DNA from: a virus
Strand: one strand, 5' to 3'
Virus record (IMG/VR): IMGVR_UViG_3300018049_000101
Span: 1 to 29,715 of that record
Length of the DNA stretch: 29,715 bases
The position numbers and the translations under genes are program-made. Below the pieces are notes generated by a model that was not told the origin of the DNA, searched no databases, and saw only the letters and a program-made list of their open reading frames with translations. Of the stretch, positions 18,001-19,991 are shown piece after piece (position 1 is the stretch's first letter; each line of letters starts with the position of its first letter).

Positions 18001-18196
18001 CGCGTTGGTTACTGATCAAAGTCTTATTGGAACTACTACGCTAGGTAACTCTATACTTGGCGGTGATAACGTATTTCCAGACGGGCCAGACGTTTTAACG
18101 GTAGTTGCAAAACTATCTGAAGATCCGTCTACAGTTAGCAATACAAATCCGTTTAACATTACGTCAAGAATATCTTGGTCTGAATCACAAGCTTAA
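12056..18196 (+). CDS. Giant virion structural protein, probable tail or receptor-binding component (2046 aa)
   Basis: The longest gene here. It contains at least eight variants of a beta-type module marked by H-G-(L/F/I)-x-x-G-D-x-V, with histidines near residues 169, 356, 661, 925, 1002, 1141, 1275 and 1460; each is followed by an NG/Y-(Y/F)-x-(I/V) strand and an F-(K/Q/T)-(L/I) strand. The part at about 1525-1750 (WNLDPCDGTGPTGFYL, then MAYIDYSWYGAG and LRSGNLPARYE) I associate with large virion proteins of marine podo- and myoviruses. Thr/Ser/Asn-rich throughout, no coiled coil and no recognisable hydrolase site. Position after the fibre gene suggests a long fibre or adhesin, though the exact location in the virion is not shown by the sequence. 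Confidence 0.75.
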   Translation: MAKKLLQYYTFDAATQTITIEGIYGLDRFLMITNVTDNIILYVFSNPDFGFSSYSIDTEAETTTVVVDYDTTSMSNSDELQIFIEQEGQEFMPAEPYIDAVSKFRVTNPQNLIDTDFEYGLQSTKWETLELVKNIPTFYSRNGDESLDLVSITRTSGSEIISVETDQAHGLAVGNPIIVQGTDSISANGAFVITKVVDTTNFQYKSKSSQTSTGSILDTYTQVFVGSVYQGTEFQLSDINSITTDSASPASTLTVSTETPTGFSTGTSFFLSNSVGSKQITFDAAAVDPSNTGWKVETHNSPEETDDQDTSGWSRIHWQPYKWTPKKAKFFVGGTDPDATITVQNTYEITFTDSGHGFSDGDCVMHYNASGNTSPGGLSERWYYITTVDANTFKLSTSYANYQAGTFVAITSAGAANLYARSCFAEAIEPISLSSNTFTFRQNVPYTDTPYIAAYSTVSNFQASAGYTAAQLLSNYDDFGNGHVCYALSSGSTTTQFSNTDGGSVRTFTSTTFAGVLVPMKPWAGQHEGFSVYLPDAGFEDGDYVVIEHESTYPVGLAVNKMYELSEIGSDYPNRFHIKNSGNTANNDIVEFTSWGNLSTGNAFQFKESDWRTMDEATTEAGFNYSPFDAHWITPDDAIYFKPDGIDATIANNQLTFATPHGITNGDTYAYFMGYGNAVINTLADSRWYYIKVIDSTTIEFYTNSDLTTGKLAITAFGTNGGRTRSALIRCYTTAGALGASDTKEEVYFVEPLDGATTGGSQAYFPVYTTFAGFSVGTSSSFLINDYSSYLIYPKKVTNNGQTVVFSSTVNGSVKNVTSTTATGAVIKASLNPARWTMLSRDASKWTVGDYIYHVASGTAGGLTSGAYYILDKIVGNRIGFRTLASSTSLVLTTPSSYTTSAYYSYWLPRSSYNSEGDYINATNHGLNDGDLVAYDAGSGNLPLKGLTDGTTYYVFNSENDKFQLATTIDGFSEDAVEFNQNNTFIGSNVNIYPGPTTSTVHNFNTGDRVQYLSDTPVPGLQNGQFYFVKDQASTYIRLYQTREGAINNVATDLIYIGYPRTGSGTFRKTTAVDILTAGTGNQTLNASTVGSSDGVYTIDSIVDDTTFTMAANTQINNRSVNFSGLPNVWVEQDAIYLPDHFFVNGQEVTYSHDVALTSMGGLTNGSNYFIIKIDRNWIRLASSAADVLTNTYITITSKFGGTHTLTASAISGEVIGAGTVNVDSGNDKVTGVGTNFTSFFNTGDSITLYQDPSTTSLAVTAVNTSTAVYTTAAHGLTTGDMVVMDAVDPPAGTVNGYIYYVNVLTSTTFTIHTSEANAIAGTNAAVASDAGTTVAFKIYNDLGDVHTGIIKAVTGPGTLELTENATVSLSDANYAIGTSLLMRADGFALHRPYDGGVDLIPSKNPDSSMIRQTRRYFRYQSGKSIQVSFAVNFSPSTQIENYTYDSVTQLGTITTRYPHRLDDTLSVVISGATTTSPTNYWNGVKPIDSIVDDYTFKVTQGGAPTVDASSGPGGLPEFYVQSWSNSALRCGLFDDQNGMFFEYDGSTLYACRRSSTVQLTGTSAVTFRSGQILGTGTKYTKQVVVGDKIVIKGQTHVITKIASDTLMYIMPSYRGVSNSNVIITKTEITRVAQSDWNLDPCDGTGPTGFYLRPHRIQMAYIDYSWYGAGKVRFGFKDQRGRVVYVHEFVHNNHKNEAYLRSGNLPARYEIENVGTPTYVPALAHWGTSVIMDGKFDPDNAYVFTAASNNIQLTGSSTVTVSARAETQSDYYYFFNNRWYNMGRALLIETPSFLYNSVPANKIIAGASVNSNTYTRNPYSYFGLPNQPYQVSLRTRYGSASASSTEDVRSLMLINQSPTGTAGTVSNYTVTVATTGAPVVYDVPLISIRLAPSVDTNTPGFLGEREIINRMQLILNSVGILSTHNAEITLRLNGLTTNTAWERVQNPSLSQLVYHTNQDTISGGIDIFEFRAQGGVGTTGRSALVTDQSLIGTTTLGNSILGGDNVFPDGPDVLTVVAKLSEDPSTVSNTNPFNITSRISWSESQA

Positions 18197-18212
18197 CGGT
18201 AATAATAATAAA

Positions 18213-18247
18213 CTCAAGAGATCTTCATGGTCTCTTGGGTTTCCTTT
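18213..18247 (+). terminator. Hairpin terminator after the giant structural gene
   Basis: CTCAAGAGA (18213-18221) pairs with TCTCTTGGG (18231-18239), with one G-T pair inside the nine and two further pairs closing a five-base loop. It is followed by TTTCCTTT. It lies 17 bases after the stop at 18196 and just before the ribosome binding site of the lysis cassette. The interrupted T-run suggests moderate strength. Confidence 0.7.
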
Positions 18248-18257
18248 GGAGGTTAAC

Positions 18258-18446
18258 ATGACTTTAGAAGCTGAAGCCGTTCAAAAGGAACTGGAGGCCC
18301 ACGAACGCGAATGCGCTATAAGATACGGCGCAGTACAAGAAAAACTTGAATCGTTAGATAAACGCTTATGGCGTCTTGAAGCGATGATTATGGGTTCAAC
18401 GATAGTAATTGTTGGACTTGCCCTTACTTTAATGATGAAAATGTGA
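18258..18446 (+). CDS. XhlA-like membrane-associated lysis protein (62 aa)
   Basis: Start ATG 18258 is chosen because TTTGGAGG lies just upstream; the frame is open back into the previous gene. The first 40 residues are a charged amphipathic helix or coiled coil (LEAEAVQKELEAHERE, then VQEKLESLDKRLWRLEAM) and residues 44-60 are a single membrane segment (MIMGSTIVIVGLALTLMM). This is the organisation of hemolysin XhlA-type proteins, which assist holins. It opens the lysis cassette directly after a terminator. Confidence 0.7.
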   Translation: MTLEAEAVQKELEAHERECAIRYGAVQEKLESLDKRLWRLEAMIMGSTIVIVGLALTLMMKM

Positions 18447-18463
18447 GGTTGAAATATATATAA

Positions 18464-18937
18464 ATGATAGCTGAAACCATGGCTGGAATAGCTTTGGTAA
18501 AGAGTGCTGTTGAGGGCATTAAATCAGCAATCAATACCGCCAAAGATATCGGTGAGATAGCATCTCATGTAGATAATCTTTTAGAGGGCGAAAAACAAGT
18601 ACAACAAAAGCGGGCTAAATCATCTGGCGTTGGAGGTATTGGCGACCAATTAGGTCTGAAGTCAGTGGCACAAGAGGTTATAGATGCTAGGCTTGCTCAA
18701 GAAAAAATAAATGAAATGAGAACTATGATTGACATGAGATTTGGTCCAGGAACTTGGCAATCTATTGTTGATGAACGAGCAAAGAGGATACAACAAATAA
18801 AAGAGGCTGAAAAACAAGCTAAGAAAGAAGCGTTATTAAAACAAGAAGAGTTAATTGAAAACGTAAAAATCGGTGCTGTAGTAGTAAGCGCGTTAGTAGC
18901 GTTGTTTCTTATTCTTGTTTTAATTATCTCAAAATAG
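18464..18937 (+). CDS. Tail-anchored coiled-coil membrane protein in the lysis cassette (157 aa)
   Basis: Residues 1-40 form a mildly hydrophobic amphipathic helix (AGIALVKSAVEGIKSAINTAK). Residues about 80-130 are charged and helical, starting with RFGPGTWQSIVDERAKR, a stretch I recall from a protein common in marine phages. Residues 134-156 are a strong C-terminal membrane anchor (VKIGAVVVSALVALFLILVLIIS). The start is less certain than for its neighbours: the nearest GAGG is too far from ATG 18464, and ATG 18479 is an alternative. Function unknown; a membrane-anchored lysis or entry role is inferred from context. Confidence 0.7.
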   Translation: MIAETMAGIALVKSAVEGIKSAINTAKDIGEIASHVDNLLEGEKQVQQKRAKSSGVGGIGDQLGLKSVAQEVIDARLAQEKINEMRTMIDMRFGPGTWQSIVDERAKRIQQIKEAEKQAKKEALLKQEELIENVKIGAVVVSALVALFLILVLIISK

Positions 18938-18946
18938 GAGGATGCA

Positions 18947-19156
18947 ATGTTTGAGGCGCTAGTATTAATATGTATAAACGGTGACATTAACGAACAATGT
19001 TTAGAGGCGGCAGACACTTATGGCCCTTATGTTACTGTTGACGAGTGTAAGCATCGTGTTGCAGAAATGGTTTATGATTTATCTATTATAGACTCACCAT
19101 TCAAGCCAGCTGGAACACGTTGTCACGAAGTAAAACCAAAAGGAGATGCAGTATGA
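18947..19156 (+). CDS. Small four-cysteine protein, paralogue-like of the one at 3129 (69 aa)
   Basis: Short hydrophobic start (FEALVLICI) with cysteines at 9, 18, 34 and 59, a central VDEC motif and an end with RCHEVKP. The order ALVL-C, C, E-C, C-x-x-V parallels the protein encoded at 3129. ATG 18947 follows TAGGAGG and the stop overlaps the holin start by ATGA, so it is part of the lysis operon. A disulfide-stabilised exported protein is possible but no standard signal peptide is present. Confidence 0.7.
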   Translation: MFEALVLICINGDINEQCLEAADTYGPYVTVDECKHRVAEMVYDLSIIDSPFKPAGTRCHEVKPKGDAV

Positions 19157-19551
19157 TACAAGCGCTTATTGGACCTGCAACCGCTTTACTAGATAAGTTT
19201 ATAGAAGATAAAGATCAAAAGGCAAAATTAGCTCATGACTTAGCTACTATGGCTGAGCGTCATGCGCAAGAGCTGGCTAAAGGACAACTTGAAATAAACA
19301 AAGCAGAAGCACAAAGTAGAAATATGTTTGTAGCTGGTTGGCGACCGTTTGTTGGTTGGTCTTGCGGCTTAGCCTTGTTTTGGCATTTTCTTGGACTACC
19401 TTGTACAATGTTTGCAATGTCCGTTTTAGACGTTGCTATACCGGCCGATCTTCCGGAGTTTGATATGGATACCTTAATGACTGTGCTATTAGGTATGTTA
19501 GGACTCGGTGGCATGAGAAGTTTTGAGAAGTTTAAAGGAATTACTAAGTAA
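19153..19551 (+). CDS. Holin, GTA-type 3TM family (132 aa)
   Basis: Start at ATG 19153 (ATGA overlap; AGGAG upstream) rather than the earlier in-frame 19120. Residues 15-55 are charged and helical. MFVAGWRPFVGWSCGLALFW (58-77) and MDTLMTVLLGMLGLGGMRSF (105-124), with hydrophobic segments between, match the 3TM holin family described for gene-transfer-agent release; the WRPFVGW and LGLGG-x-RS-x-EK motifs are typical. It would permeabilise the inner membrane so the lysozyme encoded next can reach the wall. Its stop codon shares a base with the lysozyme start. Confidence 0.85.
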   Translation: MIQALIGPATALLDKFIEDKDQKAKLAHDLATMAERHAQELAKGQLEINKAEAQSRNMFVAGWRPFVGWSCGLALFWHFLGLPCTMFAMSVLDVAIPADLPEFDMDTLMTVLLGMLGLGGMRSFEKFKGITK

Positions 19552-19991
19552 TGAATGTAGATAAATTAAGAGCAGATCTTGAACTTGACGAAGGAGTCAA
19601 ACATGAAATTTATCTCGATCATCTTGGCCTTCCTACTTTTGGCATCGGCCATCTCGTACGGGAAGAAGATCCGGAGTTTGGAGAGCCAGTTGGCACATTT
19701 GTCTCAGACGATCGAGTGGCTGAAGCGTTCGAACAGGATATACAAATCACAATTGACGACTGCGAAAAACTCTATCCCGATTTTTATGAATTGCCAGAGG
19801 AAGCCCAGCTCATTATCGCAAATATGTGCTTCAATCTTGGATACCCACGACTATCTAAATTTAAAGGAATGAAACGTGGTGTAGACGCCCGTGATTGGAA
19901 CACCGCAGCAGATGAAATGGTAGATAGTAAGTGGTATCGGCAAGTTCCTAATAGAGCCGAGAGGCTTGTCCAAAGAATGAAATCAATTTAG
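19551..19991 (+). CDS. Endolysin, T4-type lysozyme (GH24, 146 aa)
   Basis: Cleaves the glycan backbone of peptidoglycan. The catalytic triad of T4 lysozyme is recognisable by spacing: Glu14 (DEG), Asp23 (YLDH) and Thr29 (LPTFGIGHL). The C-terminal half, with ANMCFNLG, LSKFKGM and SKWYRQVPNRAERLVQRM, is the usual GH24 end, and the length is close to the 164 residues of T4 lysozyme. No signal peptide, so it depends on the holin. Codons for residues 20-35 all end in a pyrimidine, exactly where another frame (19603-19872) encodes a membrane segment. Confidence 0.93.
   Translation: MNVDKLRADLELDEGVKHEIYLDHLGLPTFGIGHLVREEDPEFGEPVGTFVSDDRVAEAFEQDIQITIDDCEKLYPDFYELPEEAQLIIANMCFNLGYPRLSKFKGMKRGVDARDWNTAADEMVDSKWYRQVPNRAERLVQRMKSI
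19603..19872 (+). CDS. Candidate inner-membrane spanin nested inside the lysozyme gene (89 aa)
   Basis: This frame lies wholly within the lysozyme gene, shifted by one base. AAGGAG (19591-19596) stands six bases before its ATG, a textbook ribosome binding site. Residues 3-19 are a membrane segment (FISIILAFLLLASAISY), ending in Lys-Lys. Hydrophobic residues then fall at 23, 26, 30, 33, 37, 40, 47, 51, 54 and 58 with Asn at 44, an unbroken 3-4 heptad pattern over five heptads. An N-terminal anchor plus a periplasmic coiled coil is the architecture of Rz-type inner-membrane spanins, and this gene is in the lysis cassette, where a spanin is otherwise missing. Caution: the binding site uses the conserved Glu-Gly codons of the lysozyme, and no lipoprotein partner was found. 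Confidence 0.6.
   Translation: MKFISIILAFLLLASAISYGKKIRSLESQLAHLSQTIEWLKRSNRIYKSQLTTAKNSIPIFMNCQRKPSSLSQICASILDTHDYLNLKE

Follow-up and report, generated by a model that had tools for sequence, protein, structure and literature searches.

Overlapping genes of tailed-phage genomes are mostly omitted by annotation. The locus described here raises the question of whether a phage lysozyme gene contains, in its +1 frame, a second gene for a small membrane protein, and what such a protein would do for the phage; the initial annotation had proposed an inner-membrane spanin (i-spanin) of the Rz type, sharing one sequence with the endolysin. The window, meaning the whole stretch of DNA that was analyzed, is a viral fragment of 29,715 bp with 99.8% identity to part of a 46,660-bp IMG/VR record (G001).

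Lysis genes and nested frame in the window

The host frame of the overlap is a GH24 (T4-type) lysozyme, or endolysin, at 19551..19991 on the plus strand (PF00959, E = 1.4e-8; PHROG matches to endolysin/tail lysozyme). It is preceded on the same strand by a separate gene for a holin with three transmembrane (TM) segments (GTA_holin_3TM, 19120..19551; PF11351, 5e-21; phrog_3427 holin, 2.5e-36), whose stop codon overlaps the lysozyme ATG. The nested ORF, 19603..19872 (+), lies wholly inside the lysozyme gene in the +1 frame and encodes 89 aa. Its N-terminal membrane segment, predicted at residues 3–19 (19609..19659, +), has a best 17-residue hydropathy of 2.39, and within the hydrophilic tail, residues 23–58 (19669..19776, +) form a heptad or coiled-coil-like stretch with a heptad index of 0.78, the a/d residues being I23, L26, L30, L33, I37, L40, N44, Y47, L51, A54, and I58. 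A Shine-Dalgarno (SD)-like motif, AAGGAG (19591..19596, +), is located within the lysozyme Asp-Glu-Gly codons and ends six bases before the nested ATG.

In this geometry, each wobble base of the lysozyme falls on the middle position of a nested codon. Every synonymous change in the lysozyme therefore alters the nested protein, and the nested frame can acquire a stop solely where xTA precedes a purine or xTG precedes A. Lysozyme codons 20–35 have a pyrimidine third base throughout (P = 0.0002 given the codon usage of the window). When synonymous lysozyme codons were redrawn using the codon usage of the window's genes, the frame stayed open for 89 codons or more in 0.055% of redraws and for 50 codons or more in 1.5%. 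What the initial annotation had read directly from the letters, namely the ORF, AAGGAG, the membrane segment, the heptad positions, and the pyrimidine-ending codons, was all confirmed on the sequence. The nearest relatives of the window's lysozyme are found in T4-like contigs carrying a T4-type DNA polymerase, and thus the lysozyme of this phage, nested gene included, may have been acquired by transfer from a T4-like phage.

Conservation of the frame among relatives

Several hundred relatives were gathered through six scans of viral contigs. A tblastn search of phage records with the nested protein found no relatives among isolates, and a search among genomic hosts returned a single distant, uninformative match. 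As a null model, the same lysozyme proteins were recoded from each contig's own codon usage, with dinucleotide context left out. A frame was counted as open when it had at least 46 nested codons, and the counts refer to those members of the window's clade that lack an adjacent 3-TM holin, after dereplication. Among these 124 representatives, the frame is open in 80%, vs. 3.2% expected, and after dereplication at 75% nucleotide identity it is open in 68% of 40 lineages, vs. 2.9% expected. The ratio of observed to expected stops in this clade is 0.18, 0.20, 0.45, 0.93, and 1.17 for nested codons 1–20, 21–46, 47–69, 70–89, and 90–125, respectively; depletion is thus confined to codons 1–69 and the frequency is normal further on. 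The corresponding ratios in the Kolga-like sister clade B, which matches the null expectation and serves as a negative control, are 0.85, 0.83, 0.82, 1.08, and 1.14. From these profiles, the signal has a beginning, an end, and a negative control.

Selection therefore keeps the second frame beyond the constraint of the host frame, as is required of an overprinted gene. It acts on an open frame of about 69 codons (89 in the window's subclade), on an apolar membrane segment, and on a hydrophilic tail. The end points of the frame vary, being at 46–50 codons in several lineages, at 69–74 in most members, and at 89 in the window's subclade. Among the lineages without an adjacent 3-TM holin, 20% have a broken frame. 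Three loci (L059, L041, and L072) have one early stop in a frame that is otherwise open and apolar, as if the gene had been lost lately or started downstream. Clade C (the C48C1 group) was also considered as support and was rejected: its +1 frame runs for 75 codons without a stop in some members (L081 and L146–L150), but the product is hydrophilic without a TM segment.

GGA, the Gly codon that completes AAGGAG, is used in 55% of relatives without an adjacent 3-TM holin, vs. 26% expected, and a 4-base SD core is present in 81% of clade A vs. 33% of clade B. The initial annotation's placement of a putative ribosome binding site in the lysozyme Glu-Gly codons is supported by the AAGGAG sequence and by the doubling of GGA in relatives. 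The nested ATG is found in 77%, only a slight excess over the 66% predicted by codon usage, and the lysozyme DEG and [HY]E codons partly dictate both this ATG and the SD-like motif. In all of the open members without the ATG (11/11), a different in-frame start codon stands at that site or upstream of it. In clade B (loci L177–L256), the nested ATG at lysozyme codon 17 is mostly replaced by ACG through the use of TAC codons (18 of 27 representatives), which perhaps avoids internal initiation.

Membrane segment and hydrophilic tail

In open relatives the membrane segment contains 0.22 polar residues, vs. 1.96 expected, and the rate of purine/pyrimidine change at fourfold sites is 0.254 within the segment vs. 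0.466 downstream; the control clade has no such drop. Since fourfold sites in the segment differ in 53% of member comparisons, the members are not simply recent. Reduced synonymous variation over the overlap, which the initial annotation had suggested as a check, was found in part: the overall drop is mild (0.48–0.54 vs. 0.56), and it is marked only for purine/pyrimidine changes in the TM segment.

Charged residues are enriched in the tail, and AlphaFold2 predicts a single helix over nested residues 2–66 (mean pLDDT 83) for the window's protein. The heptad pattern depends on the length class. In the 89-codon class the heptad index is 0.58 vs. 0.25 expected, with 16/16 members above expectation and a heptad Z of 3.5, whereas in the 69–74-codon class, to which most members belong, it is weak (0.39 vs. 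0.27 expected) and prolines are in excess after the TM segment. The heptad tail is thus real in the window's subclade and at best weak in the 69–74-codon class. Of the features that homologues had been expected to share, the open frame and the SD-completing codon are favored, while the ATG stays near expectation and strong heptads are limited to the 89-codon class.

The +1 frame is very probably a real overprinted gene, judged from these comparisons: stop depletion, TM constraint, and the recoding null all uphold a single-TM gene inside the endolysin gene conserved by selection. It is very improbable that lysozyme residues, codon bias, or shared ancestry alone produced the open frame and its apolar segment, a reading consistent with the partial origin of the SD-like motif and ATG in conserved codons, the near-expected ATG frequency, and the broken frames in one fifth of holin-free lineages, but opposed by recoding that leaves 3% open against the 68–80% seen, by a TM segment that excludes purines although synonymous sites are near saturation, by a sister clade that acts as null, and by a depletion that ends at codon 69. 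The gene is thereby backed by strong comparative evidence, in a well-known enzyme of more than 100 divergent marine phage lineages, T4-like and of other types. Furthermore, overprinting can be studied cleanly in this system, with a sister clade lacking the gene, repeated losses, variable ends, and a subclade seemingly elaborating a coiled coil.

Possible roles of the nested protein

The nested protein probably helps to open the host cell, and it is probably not a spanin. The more specific reading, that it works in lysis as a holin, co-holin, or antiholin rather than as an Rz-type i-spanin, has in our judgment an even chance of being right. Translation would begin at the SD/ATG inside the lysozyme mRNA, giving, alongside the endolysin, a small single-pass inner-membrane protein with N-in, C-out topology that acts at the lysis step; we infer translation, topology, and role alike. 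The lysis role is suggested by the location of the gene, by its complementarity with dedicated holin genes, and by a precedent. In Staphylococcus aureus phage 187, the endolysin gene ply187 contains hol187 in a different frame (Loessner et al., 1999, J Bacteriol 181:4452, as cited in PMC5810103 and PMC4553209). As cited there, the likeness is that a gene for a small membrane protein lies entirely within an endolysin gene but is read in a different frame, and a single mRNA would thus yield both products. The kind of arrangement is therefore already known, and what is new is the scale, the host range, and the enzyme: unlike hol187/ply187, the present gene occurs in another host group, in a GH24 T4-type lysozyme, encodes a single TM segment with a hydrophilic tail, and is spread over more than 100 divergent marine phage lineages, sometimes beside a complete Rz/Rz1 pair.

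Gene order in relatives points in the same direction. In all nine representatives in which Rz/Rz1 closely follow the lysozyme (L018, L066, L070, L078, L137, L330, L332, L357, and L360), the nested frame is intact, and all but L070 have no other obvious holin between. Because lysozyme, Rz, and Rz1 follow each other without an evident separate holin in most of these cassettes, the nested protein is a natural holin candidate, and it may supply the missing holin for marine phages with endolysin, Rz, and Rz1 but no recognized holin. Other TM ORFs are found near some of them. For example, small TM ORFs with a good SD lie near lysozyme-Rz-Rz1 in L070 (5511–5663, 50 aa) and L066 (6678–6803, 41 aa) and are alternative holin candidates. 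Near the lysis region, L018 (6479–6823), L066 (7146–7469), and L030 (1290–1610) encode a conserved EF-hand-like protein that has two TM segments and occurs in T4-like and other marine phages. The T4-type holin PF11031 was not found in 20 partial records, and among the other proteins of T4-like genomes are some with 2 TM segments that are possible holins. The contigs are incomplete, which makes a missing holin or Rz1 a weak argument.

Frame loss appears to be tied to a dedicated adjacent 3-TM holin, though the association is only suggestive: the frame is open in 6 and broken in 24 representatives with such a holin, against 88 open and 21 broken without one (Fisher 1e-9, not significant in phylogenetically independent pairs, of which five were supported). 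The phage of the window is one of the exceptions: it has a GTA-type 3-TM holin, and its nested frame is nevertheless open. Its nested protein could be a second holin-like partner beside the 3-TM holin, or could have been carried over with the lysozyme from a T4-like phage.

In layout, the nested proteins (46–89 aa, with a TM segment and charged tail) resemble single-TM holins. Holin Superfamily II is described by a single TM, a charged C-terminal tail, and 78 ± 14 aa (quoted in PMC4553209); proteins of 69–89 aa with one TM segment and a charged hydrophilic C-terminus, encoded next to the endolysin and, in relatives, near Rz/Rz1, agree with it. The nested gene differs in being overprinted instead of upstream and in the heptads of the window subclade's tail, and the likeness is one of layout, not of sequence similarity.

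The leading alternative, which we regard as rather unlikely, is that the small membrane protein serves a different purpose, for example superinfection exclusion, inhibition of an incoming tail lysozyme, or regulation of the endolysin. Position within a lysozyme gene alone is no proof of a lysis function, and selection restricted to the TM segment and a short tail, with end points at 46, 69–74, or 89 codons, would suit such a protein. The recurrent pairing with complete endolysin-Rz-Rz1 cassettes and the frequent loss of the frame beside a dedicated holin speak instead for the holin, co-holin, or antiholin reading.

Less probable again is that the gene, if only in the 89-codon subclade, encodes an Rz-like i-spanin with an anchor, a periplasmic coiled coil, and a putative outer-membrane partner. 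Spanins are classed as embedded, overlapped, separated, and unimolecular, and the passages on these classes describe Rz1 nested in Rz, with no endolysin-nested i-spanin among them (PMC6139136). The window's subclade shares with lambda-type embedded Rz/Rz1 and other two-component spanins an N-terminal anchor followed by a coiled coil and a lysis gene nested out of frame, but the known nesting, as described in that source, is of an o-spanin in an i-spanin, whereas here it is in an endolysin. A TM segment followed by heptads that clearly exceed chance in each of the 16 class members, weak Rz-like PHROG matches, a window phage with holin and endolysin in which no other spanin was found in 46.7 kb, and partial genomes of other 89-codon members in which a search for Rz/Rz1 found none would all fit an i-spanin. 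The window's protein matches phrog_739 weakly (E = 0.007), and the best match among relatives' nested proteins is to phrog_214 (E = 6e-5). The phrog_739 profile also matches 14/14 control genomes, so that weak matches to it tell only of a TM segment and a coil.

Further evidence argues against this identity. In at least nine relatives whose nested frame is intact, the lysozyme is directly followed by a conventional i-spanin and an overlapping lipoprotein o-spanin (Rz/Rz1; for the G010 pair, phrog_739 5.6e-10 and phrog_812 2.6e-12), and the nested protein would thus not be the sole i-spanin of these cassettes. Such pairs, which the initial annotation had named as evidence that would count against its proposal, are found in these relatives, and none was found in the partial records of the window's own subclade. 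A lipobox scan of the window and the 46.7-kb G001 record, possibly incomplete, gave no credible o-spanin partner, and phrog_812 is absent from that record. Frames ending at 46–50 codons in several lineages are too short to span the periplasm, and most members have weak heptads. A spanin identity of the nested protein in general is therefore not supported. For the window's subclade it is doubtful, slightly more so than the i-spanin reading as a whole, that an ancestral membrane protein of this kind acquired a coiled coil and a longer tail and now serves as an outer-membrane disruptor with a putative partner; if so, one sequence would encode both wall cutting and outer-membrane disruption.

Two further proteins are encoded upstream of the lysis genes in the window. 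One of 96 aa (18156–18446), whose N-terminus resembles a coiled coil and whose C-terminus carries a TM segment, an XhlA-like layout, gave no family matches in Pfam-type and PHROG profile searches. The other, of 157 aa (18464–18937), has a coil-rich body and a C-terminal TM segment; similar proteins adjoin the lysozyme in L052, L118, L135, and L357, and it is possibly an unconventional spanin or a structural protein.
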